Source: Coriobacteriia bacterium
Lineage (GTDB): Bacteria; Actinomycetota; Coriobacteriia; Anaerosomatales; Anaerosomataceae
Length of the DNA stretch: 64,000 nt
Assembly: GCA_016938135.1 (NCBI GenBank)
Contig: JAFGVD010000015.1
Location: 1 to 64,000, forward strand
Direction: 5' to 3'
Shown: positions 35,839-56,171 of the stretch, piece by piece
Layout of the letters: every line of letters starts with the position of its first letter
Numbering within the stretch: position 1 is the first letter of the stretch
Translations under genes and position numbers: made by a program
Notes under the pieces: model-generated
Databases searched by the model: none
What the model saw: the letters and a program-made list of their open reading frames with translations, nothing else
Told to the model about the DNA's origin: nothing

Positions 35839-36495
35839 CTAGCGAGCGCCCACGGCTCCCGGTGACGCAGCGCACTTACACGCCAGCGACTTGATATCGC
35901 AAGGCATGCGTATCTGGCTGATAGACATCCCTTCCGGACGGACGACGCGAACCGCCGGAGTGAGCAGCAGGACGCCCTTCACGCCTGTCTGGCCGAGAAG
36001 ATCCAGCGCGACCTGAACCCACGATGGCGAGCACGCAACTAGCGCGACCTCTATCCCAAGCGCCGGATTCAGATCAGGGAGCTCGGTGATGTGCTGGACC
36101 GTGATGCCGCCAATGACCGTCCCGGCGTCTTCAGGCAGCTCTGAGAAGTAGGCGGCGGGCTTGACGCCATACCTGTCCGGCGGGAAAACGACCTCAAGCG
36201 CGGCAAGCATGGCGGCGCTTCCGATCTTGACGATGGGGTACTCCTCGGAAAGACCAAGGAAGCGCGTGAACTCCTTGAACAGGACCTCCGGCTCATACCC
36301 TGCACCCGGCCTGCCGATGTCGCCCACAAAGGAGATATCGCGACGGACGGTCTCCTCTTTGATGTCGAGCTCCTCGGCGATGGCACGCGACGTGATACGT
36401 GCAGGAGCGCCAACACGGATCAGCTCACTAAGGTAGCAGTGATACAGAGAAAGACGGTACAGGGTGGCATCCGGAGCGGTGCGAGTATCAGACAT
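35839..36495 (-). CDS. Rex-like transcriptional regulator with non-canonical Rossmann motif
   Basis: TSRAIAEELDIKEETVRRDISFVGDIGRPGAGYEPEVLFKEFTRFLGL winged helix; VKIGSAAMLAAL in place of GxGxxG; C-terminal MPCDIKSLACKC. Confidence 0.82.
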   Translation of the reverse strand: MSDTRTAPDATLYRLSLYHCYLSELIRVGAPARITSRAIAEELDIKEETVRRDISFVGDIGRPGAGYEPEVLFKEFTRFLGLSEEYPIVKIGSAAMLAALEVVFPPDRYGVKPAAYFSELPEDAGTVIGGITVQHITELPDLNPALGIEVALVACSPSWVQVALDLLGQTGVKGVLLLTPAVRVVRPEGMSISQIRMPCDIKSLACKCAASPGAVGAR

Positions 36496-40089: not shown

Positions 40090-43000
40090 TCACCAGCCTG
40101 TATCGGTCCCGTCGTACACAACGTGCGAGCCGCACCCGCTCGCAGTGGTGACGGTGCAGTTGTTCTTGGTCATGAACGTGTAGCTCACTGAATAATTGCT
40201 GACGTACACGGTGGTCTTGTCTCCCAGATAAGCGTATCTGCTGGGCATGGTGCCATTCGCATCAGCAATCAGGCGCCCGAGCTTGCTTCCGTGCGGCACG
40301 ATAGTGTGACAACGATAGCAGGCAGCAGATGCGTGCGCACCGGTCGACGCAGTGTGCGCTCTGTTATCTGAAAATCCATTGTGGCAGTTGTCACAGAGGA
40401 GGCCCGTCTGTGTACCGGCGGCGAGCCCGTTGATCGTGTATGGGGTACCTGTCGAAGTAAAAGGCCAATAACCCTTGAGCATGTGCGGCAAAGACGAACC
40501 GTGCGGCCCAACAGCAGCCGAATCCGTACTACGCGGTCCATGGCAATCAGAACAGTACATCGTCTGAGTCCCCACAGCCTTCCAACCGGTATCCATCCAG
40601 TCTGCGTTGAGCGCCTTCGTGGAGCCAAGAGGCGCAACCACGGGATGATACGAAGCATTGTTCGGGTTGAAGTCCAGCGCAACGTTAGTCCACAGGTTGG
40701 CGCCTGTCCCACCCCACGATGTGACATTCGTATTAGCACCCGAGTGGCACTTGAAGCAGATCTGGTACTCAGCGTACTTCGAGCTTGCGGTCGTCGTCTT
40801 GGTGTAGCCGGTGGGAGCTGTCCAGTTGGCACCCGGCGAGTACGTAGGCTCCTGACCCCATGCGCCCCAAAGCGGCGAACCGCTCGCGATAGTACTGGTA
40901 CCCGTGGTATGGATCGTCGAGCCTGAGACGCCATTTCCCGTGGCGTGCGCATCGTGGCAGTCCTCGCACTCGACGTGTTTGTTCGCGCTTATCTCCGCCT
41001 GTGTCTCGTCCGACTCATGGACGCCCGAGTACGTGCCGACTCCATGCTTCTTGATGGACCAGGGAGAAGTCGTGTTGGCGTACGACGAACCAAAGAGCAG
41101 CGAGACGCTCTGCGACCTCGCACTCATAGTCTTAACGCCGTAGCCGTCGCTCAGCGTAGAACCCGTGTGACAGGCGAAGCACAGGTTCTCCTCGGTGGGC
41201 GAACCGGTTGCCCCAAGTGCTGCCGCTATCCTGCTCTCGGCTGACGTGTGCGTCCCTATCTTGTAGGTGCCGGTCTGGAACCACGCGCTGGTCCCGGCGC
41301 TGTCGGTGTGACACTTAGTGCAGTTGGCCTGGAAGGCCGAGCCATCGTCATAGCCCACCTTGGCTACGCTGTTAACAGCGTAGTCGTGCGCCTTGCCTGC
41401 ATATGTGCTGCCGCTGATCACAGGAGTGGCCTCTGAGCCGCCGACCTTCTGCTGCGTGCTCTTGGTCTGCGCCACATCGTGACAACTCACACAGATACCG
41501 TACGGAGCCGACGACGAGTAATCGGTGCTCGCTGCCGTGCCGGTGTTGTCGTCGATGCTGGTACGCAGGTTAGTGCTCTTGTCAGTGAAGTAGTTGTGAT
41601 CGGTGTGGCAGCTCACGCAGGCGAGCTTATTGTCAGAAATCGGGTACGTGGCGGTCGCTCCGGGAGCCATGTCCGACCCACGCACATCATCCGTGTCCAT
41701 AGCATGATGATACGTGTCCGTGGATGAATCCATGACGCTATACGCTGAGTGGCACAGATAGCAGTCCATACCACCGGGAGAGACGCCACTGCCGGGATTG
41801 TGAACGTTGATGCCGCTGTCTGCGGTCATCGTACCGTGACACGTAAGACAAGATGCCGAGTCATCACGATAGTGCCCGCTCAGCTCCGGGACCTTGAGTC
41901 CTACGACCCCAGACCTGACTGTGCGGTCTATGCCCTCTATCTCTGCTCCCGCCGAGACAACCGCATACGCGCTACCATTCCAACCGTAGGCGTCTGTATT
42001 CCCCGACGAAGACCCGCACGTCGTGTGGCAGGTGAAGCAGAACTCGCGAACGCCCAACGCATCGGTCAGGTCGAGTTCCCCGTTCGAATCACCGACTGCG
42101 ATCGTGGTATCGGCGCTCGTCTGAGTGATGACCAGCAGCCCGTTGGGAGTGGCGGAACCATGGGGGTTATGGCAGTCGTAGCACGGAAGCGCCGACTCAG
42201 CTGGCAGCGTGCCTGTATCGCTCTCGATCTTGTGGCCAAAGCGAGTGCTCGTCGTCTGAGTGGCTCCCCCGCCCGCCGTCGACGGATAGTACTGCTTGAT
42301 GTTGTAGCCCGTCGTCGTTCCATCGTGGCAATCGAAACACAGTGTGAAGTCAGTGGTCGTGAAAGTGGAGACAAGGCCGTCGTAGTCGTTGTCAGCACGA
42401 TGCGAAACGTGACAGTAGAGGCAGTCCCCCTCCACGCGCGCCGGATCGGCTGCTGATGCCGGGATCGTCGCGTGCGGGTTGTTTGCGTCACTCAGGTACC
42501 CCGGGAACGTGCCCACCACGGGATAGCCTGTGGCGTCCCTGGTGGGAGACGTCACGTCGTACGTCTCCGTACCCGAGTACCAATCATTCGTGCCGTTGTG
42601 ACATGCTAGACACCAGTCGTTTCCGACGCTCGCCACGGCAACGCCGTTGACGGTCTGCGCAGGCAACATCGTTCGCGTGGCTGGATCGAGGTGTGGGGAG
42701 TGGCAATTAGTGCATACGTCAGTGAGGTCCCCATCAGTGGCCGCCTCTTCGACCGAATGCCCACTCGGCATGGCGGCATCGAAAGAGTTCTCACCAGACT
42801 CCACGTTCTTCTCGGCAAGGGTGCCGTCATGGCATGTCAGGCACACGGATGTCTGACCCGGCGTACTACCTGTCTGTCGCATCAAGATACCCGCGTCAGC
42901 GGCTTCGTGGACCGAATGGCACATCTTACAGAGCGCCGTCCCTGTCGTATACGTCCCGTGCGGCGATGGCGGCTCCCATGCTGCTGACACCGGACCCGCG

Positions 43001-45441
43001 ACTTCTGACTGAGCCGAGATGTTGCCCGCTGCATCGTACGCCTTCACTGCGTAGTAGTAGTTCTGGCCGGCGACGCCTGATTCATCGTCGAACGACAACG
43101 AGGTAGTGTTGCCGATAGGCGTGAACGGACCGGCAGGGTTAAGGGCACGCAGCACCGTGTAGCCCACAGGGTCGCCGCTTGAAGCGGCCCACGCGATGGT
43201 GGCGATCGTGGGATCTGCTACACCTGCGGTGAGGGTGCTTATGACGGGGATACTTGGCGGAGTGACATCAAACGAGCTATCCGCGCTATAGAACTCCATC
43301 GTCTGGACATCATTGCTGTTGAGGCCGTCAGAGACCGTCCCGGCCGCTACGCCGAGCGTATAGAGTACATCGGCCGTCTGCGCACTCGTTGTCAGCAGAA
43401 CCGTACGTGAATCCGCCTGCAGCACAGCGCTGGAGACGGTGAGCCCACCGGAGAGCGTGAAACCGCTGGCGTTCTCGAGCGTGACGCTCTCGCTGAAGAT
43501 CGCCTGAACCGTGGTCGAGTCCACGGGCACCAGCGACTGCAAGGTGGGCTTCACATTGTCCACAAGTAGAGAGCTAAGTGCCGAAAGCTCATTGCCGGCC
43601 GCATCACTGAAGAGGGCGGAGACGATGAAAGTGACTCCGTCCGCCTCGGGAACAGTGAACTCCGGGTCCCAAGTGGCAAACCCGGGGCTGGTGGCGGTAG
43701 CATCCGTCCAGACACTGGAGAAGACCCACTCGTCACCATCGAAATCCCAATAGGCATCGTCAGTCGAACGTTTGACCGACACCTTGACCGAGACTATGCC
43801 CGACAACGCATCGGCAGCAGTACCGGTGATCTGGTACTTGGAACCGGGACTCGCCGAGATGCTCGTTCCGGACGAGGGCTGGGTAAGAACGCAGCTCGTG
43901 GAATCAGGTGCCACGTTGTCCGTCACGACGCCTTCGCCCGACATCGTCGACGTCAGCGTGCTGAAGGTCGTCACGACGGCAGGGGCGTTCACACCGATCC
44001 CACCATATTCGATCTGCGAGCCTATACCTTCGCTGTGTTCGCATGAGGCCGCCACATCATAGGCAACCCACACGTCAACATGACCAGCATCCGGGACGAC
44101 GACACTGAGACCCGTGAATGCCGCGTTCGCTCCCGAACCATACGCCATGCTGCCAAGAAGCGTGTCCTCGGTCGCATCAAAGGTTCCGTTGCCATCATCC
44201 AGGTAGATCTTCACCAGTGAGACCGCTGCCGAGGTCAGGGTGTCGGGGCGGTGGACCGTTATCTTGTTGACTGTCACTGCGCCCTGTGAGGCCGCCAGCC
44301 TGATGTTGTCGATCAACACGCTGGTGGCCGGCGATTTCACGTACCTTACCGACGACGGGATATGATCCGCATTGCTCACCGTCAACCTAGGCGTCTTCAC
44401 TGCGAAAACGGTAGGCGAAGCGGGCATCGGCAGCCCGGATATCGTCTGGACGTTCGTGGTGGTGGTCGCCGTGACCTTGGCATCCATGGTGGCGCCATCT
44501 GTCGCACCGGAGGCAACGACATAGGTGACCAGGTACTGCTGCGACGTATCGGTGATCGCCTCGTTCACGGACACGGTCGCGTTGGCACCGGAGAACGTAG
44601 CCGCCGTGGCGTTCAGCTTGACATCGGTGCCTGCAGTCAGCGCCCCGTCGCCATTGACGTCTCTGTAGACATAGACACCGGACACATTGGCCTCGGGAGA
44701 GGTCTTGCTGTTATTCACTGTGAGCGTATTGATGACCGGCCCGGAAGTATCCCCTGCAGTCCTACGCAGTGAAAAGCGGTTGACCACGACCTCCTGCGAT
44801 GGCACTACATCGGCCGCCGTAGGCTGTCCGCCTGTATGCGCCGAGAAAGTGACCGTGTTAGGCGTCGTCGCCGTGTACTCCACGACGATCTCCATCTGGG
44901 TCACGCGGAGGCTTGCGGCATTGGTGAAGCTACCGATCACGATACCTTCAAGAGCCTGGACATCGGCCCAGCTCCAGCTGCCACCACCCGGACGTTCAGT
45001 GAGCGCTTGCTCGAAAGTCTGATATGCCGAAGAAACCGATGACGCCGATGCATAGGTCGTAGAACCGCTCAGGGCAAGACCCAGCTGGATGCTGGCGAAA
45101 GGCGTTCCAACACTCTTGTAGCCTCTTGCCACGACCCGCAGCGTCACCTTGCTGATAGTGCCGGTGGCCGAGGGGTCCGCCAGGCTTACACTTAGCGGGC
45201 TCGTTCCTGATGTGGTGACGTAGGTCGTGTCACCGTCGTTAGCGGAGATCGCCGTAGCGATCGTCCCCGTGTTCGCCGTCCATCCCGACGAACTCACAAC
45301 CGCATCCGGAGCGAGGCTCAGCGTGGCCGCTTGAGCCAGGGAGGTCGCAAAGGCCATGGCACCCGCAACCAGCACAACAAGCCCGACGCGTACCGCGCGG
45401 GCTAGCTTGTCTCCCTTGTGGATCCACCGACTCAAGCGCAT
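40090..45441 (-). CDS. Giant secreted multiheme c-type cytochrome (19 CxxCH) with Ig-like and FN3 domains
   Basis: Signal peptide; DNVKPTLQSLVPVDSTTVQAIFSESV Ig-like; PPSIPVISTLTAG...YYYAVKAYDAAGN FN3; 19 CxxCH motifs counted by eye (CKMCH ... CYRCH). Confidence 0.92.
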   Translation of the reverse strand: MRLSRWIHKGDKLARAVRVGLVVLVAGAMAFATSLAQAATLSLAPDAVVSSSGWTANTGTIATAISANDGDTTYVTTSGTSPLSVSLADPSATGTISKVTLRVVARGYKSVGTPFASIQLGLALSGSTTYASASSVSSAYQTFEQALTERPGGGSWSWADVQALEGIVIGSFTNAASLRVTQMEIVVEYTATTPNTVTFSAHTGGQPTAADVVPSQEVVVNRFSLRRTAGDTSGPVINTLTVNNSKTSPEANVSGVYVYRDVNGDGALTAGTDVKLNATAATFSGANATVSVNEAITDTSQQYLVTYVVASGATDGATMDAKVTATTTTNVQTISGLPMPASPTVFAVKTPRLTVSNADHIPSSVRYVKSPATSVLIDNIRLAASQGAVTVNKITVHRPDTLTSAAVSLVKIYLDDGNGTFDATEDTLLGSMAYGSGANAAFTGLSVVVPDAGHVDVWVAYDVAASCEHSEGIGSQIEYGGIGVNAPAVVTTFSTLTSTMSGEGVVTDNVAPDSTSCVLTQPSSGTSISASPGSKYQITGTAADALSGIVSVKVSVKRSTDDAYWDFDGDEWVFSSVWTDATATSPGFATWDPEFTVPEADGVTFIVSALFSDAAGNELSALSSLLVDNVKPTLQSLVPVDSTTVQAIFSESVTLENASGFTLSGGLTVSSAVLQADSRTVLLTTSAQTADVLYTLGVAAGTVSDGLNSNDVQTMEFYSADSSFDVTPPSIPVISTLTAGVADPTIATIAWAASSGDPVGYTVLRALNPAGPFTPIGNTTSLSFDDESGVAGQNYYYAVKAYDAAGNISAQSEVAGPVSAAWEPPSPHGTYTTGTALCKMCHSVHEAADAGILMRQTGSTPGQTSVCLTCHDGTLAEKNVESGENSFDAAMPSGHSVEEAATDGDLTDVCTNCHSPHLDPATRTMLPAQTVNGVAVASVGNDWCLACHNGTNDWYSGTETYDVTSPTRDATGYPVVGTFPGYLSDANNPHATIPASAADPARVEGDCLYCHVSHRADNDYDGLVSTFTTTDFTLCFDCHDGTTTGYNIKQYYPSTAGGGATQTTSTRFGHKIESDTGTLPAESALPCYDCHNPHGSATPNGLLVITQTSADTTIAVGDSNGELDLTDALGVREFCFTCHTTCGSSSGNTDAYGWNGSAYAVVSAGAEIEGIDRTVRSGVVGLKVPELSGHYRDDSASCLTCHGTMTADSGINVHNPGSGVSPGGMDCYLCHSAYSVMDSSTDTYHHAMDTDDVRGSDMAPGATATYPISDNKLACVSCHTDHNYFTDKSTNLRTSIDDNTGTAASTDYSSSAPYGICVSCHDVAQTKSTQQKVGGSEATPVISGSTYAGKAHDYAVNSVAKVGYDDGSAFQANCTKCHTDSAGTSAWFQTGTYKIGTHTSAESRIAAALGATGSPTEENLCFACHTGSTLSDGYGVKTMSARSQSVSLLFGSSYANTTSPWSIKKHGVGTYSGVHESDETQAEISANKHVECEDCHDAHATGNGVSGSTIHTTGTSTIASGSPLWGAWGQEPTYSPGANWTAPTGYTKTTTASSKYAEYQICFKCHSGANTNVTSWGGTGANLWTNVALDFNPNNASYHPVVAPLGSTKALNADWMDTGWKAVGTQTMYCSDCHGPRSTDSAAVGPHGSSLPHMLKGYWPFTSTGTPYTINGLAAGTQTGLLCDNCHNGFSDNRAHTASTGAHASAACYRCHTIVPHGSKLGRLIADANGTMPSRYAYLGDKTTVYVSNYSVSYTFMTKNNCTVTTASGCGSHVVYDGTDTGW

Positions 45442-45464
45442 ACCCCCATGCATGCTCTAATCAC

Positions 45465-46731: not shown

Positions 46732-47703
46732 ATGCCCTTCAACGTGAGAAAACCGAAGTTCCGCCTGGTTATCTCCATAGCATTGCTCATAGGGTTGCTG
46801 CTCGTTGTGACGGCCATCGTCGGATCGTCACCCACGGCATGTGGCGCGTGCCACACTATGTCTCCTTACACGGAGGCACTACAGGAGTCCGCCCATTCGG
46901 ACATAGCCTGCTACGAATGCCACCTTCCTGCGGGCGCATGGGACTGGCCGGCGTTCAAGACGCATGAAGTCCTTGGGATGTACCCGGCTTCCATCATCAA
47001 GGCAAGGCTCGACGGCGCAGCAACGATGACCTCCCGGACCGCATGTCTGAAGTGCCACTCCGAGGTGCTCGAGGACGTCATCGAAGCCGGGGGTATCCGC
47101 ATCCAGCATGACTCATGCGCGCCTGAGGGCTCGTGCGATAGCTGTCACAGCACCGTAGCGCATGGCGAGAGCACGCGGTGGATCTTGGAACCCGCCATGG
47201 AGGACTGCATCGGCTGCCACCGGGACGAGAAAGCGCCAACCACATGCGACCTGTGCCACGCGGGCAAGACCACCGCAGAGCGCCTCTCAAGGGGCTCATG
47301 GGCGATCACTCACGGTCCGGAGTGGGAGACCACGCACGGCATGGGGGATCTACGTACGTGCGACGCCTGCCACGATGACAAGAAGTGTGCCTCCTGTCAC
47401 GACATCAAGCTGCCCCACCCGATGGACTTCGGGTCCACCCACCCTGCAGTCGCACTAGAGAACCCCGAGTCGTGCGAGACCTGTCACGACAGCGTTGCTT
47501 TGTGCGATGCATGTCACGGCATATCGATGCCTCACCCCGAGGGCTTCTTGTCAGAGCACTCCAAGATTGCCACCGGCACCGACGATGCGGTCTGCATCAG
47601 ATGCCACAAAGAAGCAGACTGCGTACGTTGCCACGTGGCACACACCCATCCGGGATCGACCGACGGACTGATCGGCGCCGGCCTCCCTGAGACGGGGAGG
47701 TGA
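46732..47703 (+). CDS. Membrane-anchored NapC/NrfH-like multiheme cytochrome (12 CxxCH)
   Basis: N-terminal TM; CGACHTMSPYTEALQESAHSDIACYECH; 12 CxxCH counted. Confidence 0.9.
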   Translation: MPFNVRKPKFRLVISIALLIGLLLVVTAIVGSSPTACGACHTMSPYTEALQESAHSDIACYECHLPAGAWDWPAFKTHEVLGMYPASIIKARLDGAATMTSRTACLKCHSEVLEDVIEAGGIRIQHDSCAPEGSCDSCHSTVAHGESTRWILEPAMEDCIGCHRDEKAPTTCDLCHAGKTTAERLSRGSWAITHGPEWETTHGMGDLRTCDACHDDKKCASCHDIKLPHPMDFGSTHPAVALENPESCETCHDSVALCDACHGISMPHPEGFLSEHSKIATGTDDAVCIRCHKEADCVRCHVAHTHPGSTDGLIGAGLPETGR

Positions 47704-47707
47704 CGGG

Positions 47708-48802
47708 GTGCAGGAGTACATCGACCAGATAGCCGACGTCATCGGCAACCCGACATCCAACCTCGTGGTCGCAGCACTGCTCCTGGCGGCTGTCACGCTC
47801 ATCGTGCTGATCCTCATCCTGGTGGCGCTGATCTTCCTCATGCCATCGCGGCACCACGACGAGGACGATGAGGGCGACCAGGACGATGAGGACATTCCCG
47901 AGAAGCCAACGCCTGCTCCTAAGCGAGAGGCACGCAAGCCTCTTCCCCGGAAACTGCAGATCTGGCTGTTTGTCGGCATCACGGCGGCGACAATCGCCAC
48001 TGCGTACGGCGTGACCTCAAGCGATGACTATTGCGCGAACACCTGCCACGTGATGGCGCCTTCGGTGGCCTCCTGGAACGAGGGGGCGCACAGCGGCATC
48101 TCTTGCGTCCGATGCCATGAAGGCAGGCTGGTGGTCTCGGCAGCATCCGGAAGCATGTCGCGGCTGCGCCAGCTTGCCGCACAGCTTGAGGGGAAAGAGC
48201 CCGTCTCGGCAGTCGTGTCATCGCGCACGTGCCTGAGCTGCCACGCAGCGCAGCTAGAGGGCTCGGTGGAGACGTCATCCGGGATCATAGTGAGCCACGC
48301 CGAACCGCTTGAAGCGGGCATGAGCTGCGATACATGCCACACCGCGGTGGCACATGAGCGCGAGGTCGCATCGCAAGCCACCATCATGACGCAGTGCCTG
48401 ACATGCCACGAAGGCACGAAGGCTTCCGCCGAGTGCTCCACGTGCCATACGGGAGATCCGGGAGCCACTCCTGTGTTCGAGCGCATCTACACGAGCACTG
48501 AGCTCCCGCAGCCCACCTGCGGCGGTTGCCATTCCGAGGAGAGCTGCGATGCGTGCCACGGCATACGGATGCCGCATTCGCAGGCATTCATCGAGGGAGA
48601 GCATGCCAAAGATGCCGGCTTCTACCGCAAAGAGGTGTGCTGGAACTGCCACCTGAAGACCGACTGCGGCGCATGCCACGGGGACTTCGACAACTCGCAC
48701 CCCGGGGACTTCTTCCAGACGCACAAGACGCTCTCACGCGAGTCCACGTGCAACACATGCCATCGCAACCATGAAGGTCCGTTCTGCGACAGGTGCCACT
48801 AG
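47708..48802 (+). CDS. Membrane-anchored NapC-like multiheme cytochrome (11 CxxCH + 1 CX3CH)
   Basis: GTG start; two hydrophobic segments; CANTCHVMAPSVASWNEGAHSGISCVRCH; 11 CxxCH plus one CX3CH. Confidence 0.9.
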   Translation: MQEYIDQIADVIGNPTSNLVVAALLLAAVTLIVLILILVALIFLMPSRHHDEDDEGDQDDEDIPEKPTPAPKREARKPLPRKLQIWLFVGITAATIATAYGVTSSDDYCANTCHVMAPSVASWNEGAHSGISCVRCHEGRLVVSAASGSMSRLRQLAAQLEGKEPVSAVVSSRTCLSCHAAQLEGSVETSSGIIVSHAEPLEAGMSCDTCHTAVAHEREVASQATIMTQCLTCHEGTKASAECSTCHTGDPGATPVFERIYTSTELPQPTCGGCHSEESCDACHGIRMPHSQAFIEGEHAKDAGFYRKEVCWNCHLKTDCGACHGDFDNSHPGDFFQTHKTLSRESTCNTCHRNHEGPFCDRCH

Positions 48803-48945: not shown

Positions 48946-49851
48946 CTAGAAGTCGAGACCAACACCTGTGGATGCGTCAGCACGGTGGCACTTCAAGCAC
49001 GCGCCGTCCTCGGAAGGATCGGCCGCACCCGTTGCGCTACCCACTGAAGCGAAGTTGACCGCGCTCAACAGGAAGCGATTGCCGCTCGTGTAGTGCGGGA
49101 AGTTGTCGGCAGCAGAGGCGCCGTCGGTCTCGCCCGCATCGTGACAGCTACGGCAATACGTGCTCGGTGCCCACGCAACAGTCGAATTGGCCGCGATTGT
49201 CGCCTTACTGTTCGCATAGTTGGCTGTGGCGTCACCCATGATGTGCATGTTTGCAGTAGCGTCGTCATCGTAGTCATTGGCCCAGTACGTGTGGCACTGC
49301 GAGCAGAACGCCGTGACGACACCATTGCGATCAGTACCGGTTGTGAAGTCGTAGGTCGTCTCAGCTGCAGTCACAGTACCGGACTGACCTCCGATAGCGG
49401 ACTTCAGGATCTTGGTGTTGATGTCACCTGCCGCGGTCGTTGAGATCGCACCTGCACCGTGAACGGTGTGGCAGTCGACGCACGTAGAACCGGAGCCTGC
49501 ATAGTGGTTGTTCTCGTAGTCGGTGGTGTAGTTTGCAGCGACGCTGTCGTACACCTTGACACTGGACACGGAGTTGGTGATATGGCAATACTCGCACGCG
49601 TTTGCAACCGTACCGCGCAGCAGTACTTCACCGCCGGCAGTCGCACGGTGGACCGCATGGCAGACAGCGCACTTGACGGTAGTCGTGCCATAGCCTGCAT
49701 GCGGGGTCTGAACAGTGGCGTTGGCACCAGTAGTGCCCCAAGCGGAGTACTGGTCGCCGTCAACGCCTGCGACGGCAAGTGCTGTGCCGGCGAACATCAT
49801 GGTGAACGCGCAAGCAAGTACAAGTACGATGGCTAGCTTCTTACTAGTCAT
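48946..49851 (-). CDS. Secreted hexaheme c-type cytochrome, OmcS-like layout (candidate nanowire subunit)
   Basis: Signal peptide MTSKKLAIVLVLACAFTMMFAGTALA; six CxxCH (CAVCH, CEYCH, CVDCH, CSQCH, CRSCH, CLKCH) plus exactly six other His; RBS GAAGGGAG before ATG. Confidence 0.9.
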   Translation of the reverse strand: MTSKKLAIVLVLACAFTMMFAGTALAVAGVDGDQYSAWGTTGANATVQTPHAGYGTTTVKCAVCHAVHRATAGGEVLLRGTVANACEYCHITNSVSSVKVYDSVAANYTTDYENNHYAGSGSTCVDCHTVHGAGAISTTAAGDINTKILKSAIGGQSGTVTAAETTYDFTTGTDRNGVVTAFCSQCHTYWANDYDDDATANMHIMGDATANYANSKATIAANSTVAWAPSTYCRSCHDAGETDGASAADNFPHYTSGNRFLLSAVNFASVGSATGAADPSEDGACLKCHRADASTGVGLDF

Positions 49852-49950
49852 TGAATCTCCCTTCGAATGAATCCCCATCATAATTTGATTTCACCTCCCC
49901 CGTTGAAGAATCAGATACTCGCAAAGCGAGGAATCTCCCCATTCACCCCA

Positions 49951-50040: not shown

Positions 50041-51252
50041 TCAGAAATTGTCATCCGGGTGTTCGCCGACCTCCATATTCGAGAGCTCGGACGACTTTCG
50101 ACTCTTGGATACCTTCATCATGACCGCCACGAAAAGCAGCAATACGAGCGGAACCGCGCAGACCCACACTGGTCCCACGAGCGCCCTGCGCACCGTAGGG
50201 CCAAGCTCTGTAGATCCGCTGTCTGGTATGCGAACGATCTGAACCCGAGCGTTGGCGGTGTCAGCCACAACGAACCAATCGCGCTCAGTGTCATAGGCGA
50301 TGCCTGTTGGGTATGCAAAGAGACCGTCGCTTTCGCCGAAATCTCCGTAACGGTCGATTATCGAACCGTCGGTCTTATCGACAACGACCATGTTGAAACC
50401 GAACGGATCCACCAAAACGAGGCGTTCATTTGCATCCATACACATACCGGCGGGCAGCTGAAGCCCTGTGCCGCTGGTCTCCTCGGAGGTCTCCTCACCC
50501 ATGGCCTGATTGCCTCCGCCGGTGATACCTGCATCTGTCGTCCAGAGAAGATCTCCTTCCGAGCTGAAGGCCTTGACCCTGGCGTTAAGAGTGTCTGCAA
50601 CATAGATGACACCGTCGGCGTCAACGACGATTCCTTGCGGCAAATCCAGCTGCTCCAGCGAACTGCCTCTCCCACCCCAGCTCCCCACGGATTCGCCCTC
50701 GACAGTGAACACCGATACACCGGCCGGCCCCGTGACATACACACGGTCTCCCGCCACCTCGCAATCAAGCGGCTGACTGACCTCCCATGATCGAAGCAGT
50801 TCACCTTGCCGACTCAAGACAAGCAGGCGATCAGCGCCGTTGGCGCACACGTAGACCTCGCCGTCCTGACTCACAGAGATGCCCTTGGGCACCACCCAAG
50901 GGATATCCGCGACCACGCCAGAGAGCTCAATTCGGCGTCGAAGCGTGCCGTCGGGCCCAAACTCGAAGATCGAATTCAGCTGGGTGTCACTCACCCAGAT
51001 CGCACCGCCGGAAGATATCTCAACGTGATCGGGCGCGATAAACTGCTCTTCCGCAGACGGGCCGAATCCATAGATCGAACGAACCCACTCCAGACCCTCC
51101 GGCAGACGAACCTCATCAGGACTCCCCACTGGCTCCAGAAGAGTAGCGATGAAGTAGCCCAGCCCACCAAGCAGCATGAGCAATACCAGCAGTATCGCGA
51201 TGAGCCCAGCCCGCAGGCCCATACGATTGCCGCCTGCGCTATGACTACTCAT
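50041..51252 (-). CDS. NHL-repeat beta-propeller, membrane-anchored
   Basis: TM ILLVLLMLLGGLGYFIATLL; blades FIAPDHVEISSGGAIWVSDTQLNSIFEFGPDG, LPQGIVVDADGVIYVADTLNARVKAFSSEG. Confidence 0.88.
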   Translation of the reverse strand: MSSHSAGGNRMGLRAGLIAILLVLLMLLGGLGYFIATLLEPVGSPDEVRLPEGLEWVRSIYGFGPSAEEQFIAPDHVEISSGGAIWVSDTQLNSIFEFGPDGTLRRRIELSGVVADIPWVVPKGISVSQDGEVYVCANGADRLLVLSRQGELLRSWEVSQPLDCEVAGDRVYVTGPAGVSVFTVEGESVGSWGGRGSSLEQLDLPQGIVVDADGVIYVADTLNARVKAFSSEGDLLWTTDAGITGGGNQAMGEETSEETSGTGLQLPAGMCMDANERLVLVDPFGFNMVVVDKTDGSIIDRYGDFGESDGLFAYPTGIAYDTERDWFVVADTANARVQIVRIPDSGSTELGPTVRRALVGPVWVCAVPLVLLLFVAVMMKVSKSRKSSELSNMEVGEHPDDNF

Positions 51253-52021
51253 CGCTACCGCCCCTCTCAAGGGCCGATAGCCCCTCCAGTGCCTGTTGGA
51301 AATCGGGAATCATGCTCAGCGCCTTCTCATAGTCAGCGCGGGCAGCGGCTGTATCTCCAACGGATGACTCAAGATCGCCGCGCCAAGCGAGCACATCTGC
51401 CATCGTGGGGAGCTCTTCTAGGGCACCGTCGAGCGCAGCGATGGCCTCATCAACCCGATCAAGGCCCTCGAGAATCTGCGCCCTCAGCAACCACGCGTCG
51501 ACGATCTCTTCGGAAGAGAACGGCGAGGTGATCCCCATTGCAGCTTGCTTGTCGATGGTTGCCTGTTTCTCTGCTTGCGCTTCAGTCAGCGCACGCTCCG
51601 CAACACCAAGCGCCCCCTCGCTGTCACCGGTCGCATCAAGAAGACGAGCCTCCTCGATCGAGACCACCGCGGAGGCCGTGCTTTCCGCGGCTCGATACGC
51701 ATTCATAACAGACGTCGCCTTCGAGTAACGTTCGACCTCGATGAGCGCGCGCATGTACTGGGCCACTACTGTCGGGTCATTCGGAGTCGCCTTGAAAGAC
51801 CTGTCGAGGGTGGCTATCTCCTTCTCGGCAAGAGTACGTGGCGCCTGTCCGGTCAGGACGCCTGTATAGACGACGTAGATGACAGCGGTCAGCACGAAGA
51901 CCAACATCACAAGCACGGCCACCAACAATCGCCGCACCCAGGGGTCTGCCGCAGGCGCCTTTCTGCTACGACGGGAAGTCTCTTGCTCCATGGATGTAGA
52001 ACCTCGTTCCAATGTCGACAT
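51245..52021 (-). CDS. Membrane-anchored TPR protein
   Basis: TM VAVLVMLVFVLTAVIYVVY; TPR-like VDEAIAALDGALEELPTMADVLAWRGDLESSVGDTAAARADYEKAL. Confidence 0.8.
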   Translation of the reverse strand: MSTLERGSTSMEQETSRRSRKAPAADPWVRRLLVAVLVMLVFVLTAVIYVVYTGVLTGQAPRTLAEKEIATLDRSFKATPNDPTVVAQYMRALIEVERYSKATSVMNAYRAAESTASAVVSIEEARLLDATGDSEGALGVAERALTEAQAEKQATIDKQAAMGITSPFSSEEIVDAWLLRAQILEGLDRVDEAIAALDGALEELPTMADVLAWRGDLESSVGDTAAARADYEKALSMIPDFQQALEGLSALERGGSDE

Positions 52022-52145: not shown

Positions 52146-53624
52146 TTAGAAGTCGATGCCTACCTTGTCGTGGCACTGCAGACACTGGCCGTCGAACGGA
52201 TAGCTGTAGTTGCGCAACATGAAGTTCTGACGTGTCCCATGAGGATCGTGACACGTAGACGTACATGTTAGCGGCTTCTGCGCGGCAACGTCATAGTGCT
52301 CGGGCCGAACGGGATGGTTGTTCCGATAAACGGTGGCGCTCGCCTCGTCGTAGTCCGCCGCGGCATGGCACTGCAAGCAGACCTCGGGGTTGGCCTTCAC
52401 GAGTATGGGTGCATAGTCCGAACCGTGTGGCGTATGGCAGCGGATGCACAGGATCCCGTCGTGATCGGATGCATCATACGAGGTCTGGATAGCCTGGGCG
52501 TGACACTGATAGCACATGTCGTTCCCCTCGGCTGCGAGCAAACCGGGATAGTCCGCACCGTGAGGATCGTGGCAGTCACCACAGTTCAGATCGGCGGTAC
52601 CCACCGGGTGGTGACTCGACTTCAAGAAGTCGTCTTGGATGTCCCCGTGGCAGATATAGCATACGTCGGGCTGCTCTTTGATGAGCAGCGGACGATAGTC
52701 CGAGCCGTGCGGCTCATGACATCCGGTGCAGTTGTCGTAGAGGAAGGGCTGGTGCTGCACGGACTTGAGACTGAGCGGCGCCACGCTGGGGTGACAGGTG
52801 AAACAAAGGTCGCGCTGGTTGTCGACCAAGATCCCCTCGTAGCGTGAAGCGTGCGGGTCGTGGCAGTTGGTGCAGTAGCGCCCTTCAACCGGCGGGTGCA
52901 CCTGCTCGCGCGCGAGCTCCGGACCCATCCGATGGCAGGTGATGCACAGGTCTTTCTCGGTGATTTTAAGAAGCGCCTTATTGTCCGACGCGTGCGGGCT
53001 GTGGCAGTTGGTGCAGTACCCACCCACGAACGGAGCATGAGTGTACTCATACGAGCGCATCGGGCCCATGTCGCCATGGCAGATCCAGCACAGCTCGTCT
53101 TTGGAGGTGGTGAAATCCGAGTTGATGCCTTTGACCTGCTCCTCGGTGATGCTCTTGATATCGCCGCCGGCGTCCTCGGCCGTCTGACCCTCTGCCGAAT
53201 AGAACGCGTCGACGATCATCTTGAGCGGAAGCCACTCGACGAGCGTCTTGGTGCGTTCCCATGTGAGCGAAGCGCTCTCGTATACGGTCGTCGTCTGTAG
53301 CTCGCCGTGCGGCGTGTGACAGGTGGTGCAGCCGCGCTGCTCGAACGGCAGGTGGACTGAAGACATCGAGAAGGATGGAATGAGATCGGAATGGCACTGC
53401 AGGCACTCGAGGTTCTCGGTCACGACCTTGATTTCATCGGGACCCTTACTGATCCAGGTCTCAACGATGGTGGTGACCCCAAGTAGAAGGAGGAGCAGTA
53501 TCAGGACGGCGGCGAACGCAGCCCTACCACGCTTAGGGCCACCATCTATGTCCAGTCCCTCCGGGGAAGCGAGTACGCCTTCCTCGAGGATCTCTGGGTC
53601 GCCCAATGAGCCTCCCTCAACCAT
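52146..53624 (-). CDS. Membrane-anchored multiheme cytochrome (14 CxxCH + 1 CX3CH; doubled-CxxCH repeats)
   Basis: TM AFAAVLILLLLLLGVTTIVETW; repeating C..CH...(15-30)...C..CH.PHGSDY units; CTSTCHDPHG is CX3CH. Confidence 0.9.
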   Translation of the reverse strand: MVEGGSLGDPEILEEGVLASPEGLDIDGGPKRGRAAFAAVLILLLLLLGVTTIVETWISKGPDEIKVVTENLECLQCHSDLIPSFSMSSVHLPFEQRGCTTCHTPHGELQTTTVYESASLTWERTKTLVEWLPLKMIVDAFYSAEGQTAEDAGGDIKSITEEQVKGINSDFTTSKDELCWICHGDMGPMRSYEYTHAPFVGGYCTNCHSPHASDNKALLKITEKDLCITCHRMGPELAREQVHPPVEGRYCTNCHDPHASRYEGILVDNQRDLCFTCHPSVAPLSLKSVQHQPFLYDNCTGCHEPHGSDYRPLLIKEQPDVCYICHGDIQDDFLKSSHHPVGTADLNCGDCHDPHGADYPGLLAAEGNDMCYQCHAQAIQTSYDASDHDGILCIRCHTPHGSDYAPILVKANPEVCLQCHAAADYDEASATVYRNNHPVRPEHYDVAAQKPLTCTSTCHDPHGTRQNFMLRNYSYPFDGQCLQCHDKVGIDF

Positions 53625-53728
53625 GCGTGAAGACCGGCGCACAAAGACAGTGCGCCCAGTCAGCAGTCTAACATGCCCCCGATGCCTGTTGAATACTTAA
53701 CGGTACTTCGACGTCGACCACGCATCCC

Positions 53729-54898: not shown

Positions 54899-55533
54899 TC
54901 GGCTCCAAGAGCAGTGAGGGCGTCACGCGCTTCAAGAAGATCAGGCGCGTAGCGAAGGGCCTCTTCGTAACTTGCTATAGCATCGTCAGTGCGACCGAGC
55001 TTCTCGTAGCAAAGACCGGCCAGATACTGGAGGTCGGCGAGTTCCGGACGGGCCTCCGCAACAGGCTCCACGGCGACCAGCGCGGACTTGTACTGGCCCT
55101 TCTCGATGTAGTACTCACCCAGGGCTTTGGCCGCAAGCGCGTGATCCGGCGCTATCTCAAGCACTTCCCAGAAGGTCTGCTCGGCGAGCTTCTGCTCACC
55201 CGTCTGCATGTAGATGACCGCCTTGTTGTACAGCGCGGCGGTGTTGCCGGGGTCCTCCACCAGCACCAGGTCGTACTGCTCGACGGCCTTGTCGTACTCC
55301 TCGTTCTGTTGATAGGCGAAACCGAGCGAGAGGCGATCGTCGGTGTTGTCCGGATCGGCCGAGACCTTCTGCTCCCAGTCCTCGACGGCATAGGTCTCAG
55401 GGGTCACCGGGCCTTCATCAACGATGAGACCTCGAAGCATCCATCCGCCAAGACCCACAACAGCGAGAAGCAAGATGAGCACAAGCAGCGCGAGCCACGC
55501 GGGAACGAGCTGATCCTCATGATCCGAGGTCAT
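54895..55533 (-). CDS. Membrane-anchored TPR protein
   Basis: TM WLALLVLILLLAVVGLGGWML; YDKAVEQYDLVLVEDPGNTAALYNKAVIYMQTG repeats. Confidence 0.88.
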   Translation of the reverse strand: MTSDHEDQLVPAWLALLVLILLLAVVGLGGWMLRGLIVDEGPVTPETYAVEDWEQKVSADPDNTDDRLSLGFAYQQNEEYDKAVEQYDLVLVEDPGNTAALYNKAVIYMQTGEQKLAEQTFWEVLEIAPDHALAAKALGEYYIEKGQYKSALVAVEPVAEARPELADLQYLAGLCYEKLGRTDDAIASYEEALRYAPDLLEARDALTALGAE

Positions 55534-56171
55534 CGCTCCCCGCCTTGAGCCAGGTAGAACGAGAGTATCTGCAGATCCGTGGACATACAGACCTGCCGCA
55601 CGGCCACGTCATCAGGGACCTGGAGACGCACGGGTGCAAGGTTGAGGATCGCTTTGATGCCTGCACCCACCACGCGGTCCACCAGCGCCTGGGTCTCAGC
55701 GGCAGGCGTGGCCATGATCACGATCTCCACGCCCTCCTCGGCAAGTCCCGCGTCAAGTTCGTCTACCGACCTGATCGTCACGCCGTCAGCATCCGTCCCG
55801 ATCTTATCGGGACTCGCGTCGAACACCGCCACGATGTCAAACCCTCTGTCCGAGAAACCGGTGTAGCTCTTAAGGGCGCCGCCAAGGCGTCCGTAGCCCA
55901 CGATGGCAGCGCGGCGAAGCTCGGATACGCCAAGCGACTTGGAGACGTGCGCGATAAGCGCCTCGACGTCGTAGCCGATGCCACGCGTTCCAAGCTCACC
56001 GAGATATGACAGATCCTTGCGCACCTGCGCGGCGTTGGTTCCCACCATCTCGGCGATCTCCACCGAGCTGATGACCGGCTTGCGATCTTGCTGCGCCTGA
56101 AGCAGGCAGCGCAGATAGACGGGCAGCCTTTGGATCGTTGTCTCAGGTATTTGCGTGCGTTCCATCATCAC
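55530..56171 (-). CDS. rex: Redox-sensing transcriptional repressor Rex
   Basis: RKDLSYLGELGTRGIGYDVEALIAHVSKSLGV, AAIVGYGRLGGALKSYTGF, NLAPVRLQVPDDVAVRQVCMSTDLQILSFYLAQ. Confidence 0.95.
   Translation of the reverse strand: MMMERTQIPETTIQRLPVYLRCLLQAQQDRKPVISSVEIAEMVGTNAAQVRKDLSYLGELGTRGIGYDVEALIAHVSKSLGVSELRRAAIVGYGRLGGALKSYTGFSDRGFDIVAVFDASPDKIGTDADGVTIRSVDELDAGLAEEGVEIVIMATPAAETQALVDRVVGAGIKAILNLAPVRLQVPDDVAVRQVCMSTDLQILSFYLAQGGER

Follow-up and report, generated by a model that had tools for sequence, protein, structure and literature searches.

How electrons leave the quinol pool and cross the wall of a Gram-positive cell is poorly known. Two adjoining genes for multiheme cytochromes on a Coriobacteriia contig offer a handle on this route, as they occur order-wide as a pair with fixed partners and in several versions per genome. 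We analyzed them in a stretch of 64,000 nucleotides (contig JAFGVD010000015.1, positions 1 to 64,000, forward strand), referred to as the window. The first-pass annotation had regarded both proteins, termed A and B in the following, as candidate quinol dehydrogenases functionally comparable to ImcH, an entry point for extracellular electron transfer (EET). Do both of them draw electrons from quinol, or does their NapC-type head serve another role?

Heme content and membrane heads of A and B

A (46732–47703, plus strand, 323 aa) is a cytochrome with a single N-terminal membrane helix, a NapC/NrfH-type head and 12 CxxCH motifs. Its paralog B (47708–48802, plus strand, 364 aa) contains 11 CxxCH motifs and CANTCH, a CX3CH motif that aligns with heme 1 of the other copies; with this motif counted, B has 12 motifs as well. 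Two adjoining genes with N-terminal membrane anchors and 12 hemes each had been annotated before, and this description holds. From its composition (25 cysteines and 24 histidines among 323 residues), A would be expected to contain about 0.14 CxxCH, so its 12 motifs are not due to chance. Moreover, all 12 heme motifs and about ten further histidines are invariant or nearly so in the A family, and count and invariance rule out chance heme motifs in A and B. B is built from an N-terminal hydrophobic segment, an acidic linker and a second hydrophobic segment, followed by the hemes. Two helices were scored in 44 of 46 B relatives; the second segment of window B fell below the threshold used. In two of the four B copies of this genome, the last heme motif is a CX3CH (L010:5473-6684, L020:3470-4681).

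The NapC/NrfH-like tetraheme head of A reaches from the helix to heme 4 (46732–47181, plus strand, about residues 1–150), with CGACHTM at heme 1, a lysine near the position of NrfH Lys82, and CDSCHSTVAH at heme 4. The corresponding head of B (47960–48358, plus strand, about residues 85–217) has CANTCHVM at heme 1 and CDTCHTAVAH at heme 4 and is without an equivalent of Lys82; the heme-1 strings of both window proteins had been read correctly in the annotation. Both proteins show the layout of NapC/NirT/NrfH heads, i.e., an N-terminal membrane helix and then four CxxCH in conserved spacing. Family profiles gave NrfH (2j7a_C) as best PDB match, at 5.6e-14 for A (48 relatives) and at 3.6e-13 for B (47 relatives), and in both cases the match spans the membrane helix and hemes 1–4. 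In NCBIfam, the first match of both was NrfH (TIGR03153), with 51.1 bits over residues 26–144 of A and 37.8 bits for B; both lie below the 134.2-bit cut-off of this tetraheme equivalog, and both have 12 hemes. Pfam PF03264 did not match A and scored 21.7 bits for B against a cut-off of 24.1 bits, which was passed once neighbouring stretches were summed. As NrfH is the top PDB match of both family profiles, we conclude that the NapC/NrfH-type head proposed for A and B is real, and its homology to NrfH is well supported at the sequence level.

With NrfH from Desulfovibrio vulgaris (PDB 2j7a/2vr0; TIGR03153), A and B share the membrane helix, the order of its four hemes, an SxHxxxxCxxCH stretch between the first two hemes, and CxxCHxxxxH at heme 4. 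Unlike NrfH, they carry eight more hemes, no nrfA was seen beside the pair, and the quinol-site residues are not conserved across the A/B family. In a tree of the heads only, which included NrfH and the ImcH-like X proteins described below (141 columns), A and B intermixed and NrfH took no supported place; this tree is therefore neutral as to descent from NrfH or ImcH.

The eight-heme tails of A (47182–47703, plus strand) and B (48359–48802, plus strand) share a C-terminal diheme unit, CxxCH-x3-5-CxxCH-x4-PH-x3-F-x3-4-H, and the common C-terminal signature noted earlier is hence confirmed. The unit is found twice in A, as CxxCHx3-5CxxCHx4PHx3FxxxH, once in B and once in X. Three copies are present in a 707-aa relative with a NapC head and about 24 hemes (L101:4779-6902; 21 CxxCH and further motifs of CX3CH type), in which the tail unit is repeated. 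In the genome under study, such a NapC-headed relative of about 24 hemes may be split between the end of C9 (L012:8155-9153) and the start of C4 (L019:1-300).

Duplication, pairing and gene neighbourhood

When 50 A and 50 B sequences were placed in one tree (quick search, SH-aLRT support), a single branch with a support of 100 parted A from B. This supports an origin of both proteins from one old duplication, as the term tandem paralogs had implied. Also, the pair appears to have been inherited together. The genome contains four A-B pairs (in the window and at C39, C20 and C45), whose A members are 33–39% identical to one another. In each of these pairs, A and B have their closest counterparts from other genomes at one common locus; the A-B versions therefore appear to be older than the split from the genomes with their nearest relatives. 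The distance matrices of A and B correlate with an r of 0.90 (permutation maximum 0.15), a value that stems partly from shared genome history. B follows A on the same strand in 48 loci of other genomes, which were chosen as pairs, so that 48/48 is not a rate. In an unselected list, 12-heme A-type proteins (<400 aa, score >200) precede B, the exceptions being L054 (contig end) and L042 (A frame split); among more distant relatives (L069 onward) the A-B arrangement is often absent. A was found in 56 of the 69 genomes of the order (E ≤ 1e-60), and 28 of 296 genomes of the phylum gave matches (1e-50). Named relatives come from MAGs of Coriobacteriia, Candidatus Aquicultor, Thermoleophilia and unclassified Actinomycetota, and they point to OPB41/Anaerosomatales as the order of the genome under study.

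Three further genes accompany the pair. In the window they lie on the minus strand and converge on B, an arrangement also found in L022 and L081. C (48946–49881) is a secreted hexaheme cytochrome with six CxxCH motifs alternating with six further histidines and is OmcS-like by profile. N (50041–51270) encodes an NHL beta-propeller protein (Pfam NHL) with a hydrophobic helix at each end, and T (51245–52021) a TPR protein (Pfam TPR) with an N-terminal hydrophobic segment. Since C, NHL and TPR genes are located on the strand opposite to A-B, the five genes do not form one operon in the window. At C39, all five follow each other on one strand in the order T-N-C-A-B, and C20 and C45 have NHL-C-A-B. 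An NHL gene lies near A-B in 37 and a TPR gene in 39 of the 48 loci; TPR, NHL and C occur together in 32 of the 48, and in 17 of the 19 loci where both flanks exceed 6 kb. The window moreover encodes a 14-heme protein as well as CcsB and ResB for heme attachment. A multiheme EET-type context of the pair is supported. NHL and TPR genes within multiheme clusters have also been described for Dethiobacter (PMC10376724).

The pair has probably been noted before. For two cultured Anaerosomatales, both of Gram-positive wall type and one of them reducing Fe(III), a published report gives a cluster of 'two putative quinol oxidizing multihemes' and an MtrA homolog (PMC9686372). These clusters (MCK8115470-72 and MCL4078710-12), with two multihemes beside a third, probably correspond to the present C-A-B triad, as matched by their description. 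Carboxydothermus ferrireducens has a 20-heme putative quinol-oxidizing multiheme (Ga0395992_02_135863_137242; PMC7829351). In contrast to our analysis, the passages on these multihemes in both reports (PMC7829351, PMC9686372) describe no paired inheritance, TPR/NHL cassette or residue losses. The pair is real and conserved, but it is an elaboration of known EET parts.

Quinol-site residues and the ImcH-like X family

The quinol site of NrfH is located at heme 1, with the methionine of CHxM, Lys82 and Asp89 involved. Window A has the heme-1 methionine and the lysine, window B the methionine only. Across the families, ten of the 50 A and eight of the 50 B sequences have the heme-1 methionine, and CHxM was hence ruled out as a family signature. 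A lysine stands in the Lys82 column of 11 A rows out of 48, which include most of the window sub-clade, whereas the 47 B rows have none; many gaps interrupt the alignment in this region, and single placements are therefore uncertain. In the Asp89 column, there is no acid among the residues of 46 of the 48 A rows. At the family level, the CHxM and Lys82/Asp89-type residues of an NrfH/CymA-type quinol dehydrogenase are thus not conserved.

The same genomes contain a distinct family of ImcH-like proteins with 12 hemes, X. Its heme-1 motif is CX3CH, and it was matched in 61 of the 69 genomes of the order. Members in the genome under study are found at C23 and C9. An LKK motif is invariant in five aligned rows, though not in all eight X sequences. 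In five genome pairs, conservation of X was 63–83% in the head vs. 54–60% in the tail. The corresponding values were 31–55% vs. 51–68% for A and 30–60% vs. 39–63% for B. As a rule, the heads of A and B are hence less conserved than their tails, which is the opposite of X, and the same contrast was obtained with the helix left out, i.e., from heme 1 to heme 3.

ImcH homologs have three N-terminal helices with a CX3CH beside them, followed by 5–9 CX2CH (PMC6295460, where CymA features are given likewise). Both proteins depart from this description: A has one helix and no CX3CH, and B combines its CX3CH with 11 CxxCH and has no more than two helices. ImcH of Geobacter and X (C23; C9/C4) resemble the pair in their NapC-like part, in the CX3CH beside the membrane (window B) and in the proposed quinol entry to EET. 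They differ from it, ImcH by its three helices and seven hemes, and X by its strongly conserved head with LKK, its standing alone and its own clade.

Because the head is conserved in X and fast-evolving in A and B, and because the quinol residues are lost from most A and B, X appears to be the most probable quinol entry point in these cells, with window-type A as second candidate and B as the least likely one. X cannot serve this role throughout, since four genomes of the order, though drafts, have A without detected X; 52 of the 69 have both, and nine have X without A. A lone X protein of this genome (L013:6298-7464; 12 hemes, ImcH-like, CX3CH at heme 1, strongly conserved head) is its better quinol-oxidase candidate. 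The contrast with X calls for caution in naming every NapC-headed multiheme a quinol oxidase, as a NapC-type head may persist as anchor and relay after its quinol-site residues are lost.

A proposed heme relay and its rivals

We consider it fairly probable that A and B form a co-inherited, membrane-anchored heme relay of NapC ancestry, which arose by one old duplication and stands at the base of an EET cassette of TPR, NHL, hexaheme C, A and B. Each protein would hold its tetraheme head at the membrane, with the eight-heme tail pointing outward. Electrons would enter at the membrane, move from heme to heme through A and B, and then reach the secreted hexaheme C, as the gene neighbourhood suggests, and other surface multihemes. 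The TPR and propeller proteins may help in placement or assembly. Window A keeps the heme-1 methionine and the lysine near the NrfH Lys82 position and may on this ground draw electrons directly from menaquinol; window B probably does not oxidize menaquinol and is more likely a relay only. The ImcH-like X protein may serve as entry point for other copies. That the window sub-clade retains methionine and lysine is a counterpoint to the relay, and the fast-evolving heads could also reflect partner or quinone switching rather than a loss of quinol oxidation.

NapC/NrfH heads classically feed reductases of soluble compounds, and A-B might similarly serve a terminal reductase of sulfur, nitrogen or metalloid compounds outside the membrane instead of extracellular transfer. 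We deem this very improbable, however, as the neighbours of the pair are multihemes, NHL and TPR proteins, with no reductase among those flanking genes that were classified. The view, in line with the first-pass annotation, that A and B are both menaquinol dehydrogenases comparable to ImcH, here with a duplication for different potentials or quinones, fares somewhat better but is still unlikely. The NrfH-type heads on which it was built are present in both proteins, CHxM occurs in both window proteins and the Lys82-like lysine in A. Moreover, a CX3CH beside the membrane, as in B, has been described as characteristic of ImcH homologs (PMC6295460). Yet only 7 of 50 B have this CX3CH, and the sparse methionines and lysines of both families, together with heads less conserved than tails, argue against quinol oxidation as a common property of the pair.

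Alternatively, A, B and C could make up a filament system of OmcS type in a Gram-positive cell, in which C polymerizes, A-B is the membrane base and the NHL and TPR proteins are assembly factors. This is unlikely. The C profile (28 rows) had OmcS (6ef8) as best PDB match at 3.3e-12, with OmcE at 0.0025, and both C and OmcS have six hemes, each preceded in the sequence by a distal histidine, with CHxxH at the first and third heme and the last heme near the C-terminal end. However, other multihemes scored close behind OmcS (8e-11, 3e-10), a PDB search with the single sequence of window C gave neither an OmcS match nor another multiheme of interest, and the profile-profile match of C and OmcS was weak and covered 35 columns only. 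We therefore take the OmcS likeness as a lead, not as a classification. In Geobacter, a conserved block of maturation and secretion genes accompanies omcS-type genes (PMC12977616), and our loci are alike in that a secreted hexaheme cytochrome has a conserved gene block alongside. They are unlike in that Geobacter is Gram-negative, in that a NapC-headed pair is not described in the passage on this block, and in that the likeness of C is weak and partial. It is rather unlikely, too, that the cassette is a self-contained Gram-positive cytochrome wire, in which a paired 24-heme NapC-derived base would feed an OmcS-like hexaheme filament directly, without porin or periplasmic shuttle, in four versions in one 2.1 Mb genome. 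In the C versions at C20 and C45, six hemes are reached via CX4CH at hemes 3 and 4 (L010:7760-9061, L020:5826-6953).

Apart from the relay that we favor for A and B, further genes of the window are of note. A protein of 1787 aa (40090–45453, minus strand), which has a hydrophobic segment at its N-terminus and carries 19 hemes in the C-terminal half, is a possible surface reductase. Another one of 498 aa (52146–53642, minus strand) has Paired_CXXCH repeats and lies near the cut-off of the DmsE-family decaheme proteins (183 of 192 bits). Close to the cytochrome genes lies the gene for a Rex-type redox regulator (55530–56171, minus strand); another protein (35839–36495, minus strand) has the Rex-type DNA-binding N-terminus only. 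Elsewhere in the genome, an NrfH-like tetraheme gene (L014:4182-4694) is followed by a gene for a 10-heme protein (L014:4929-6047).
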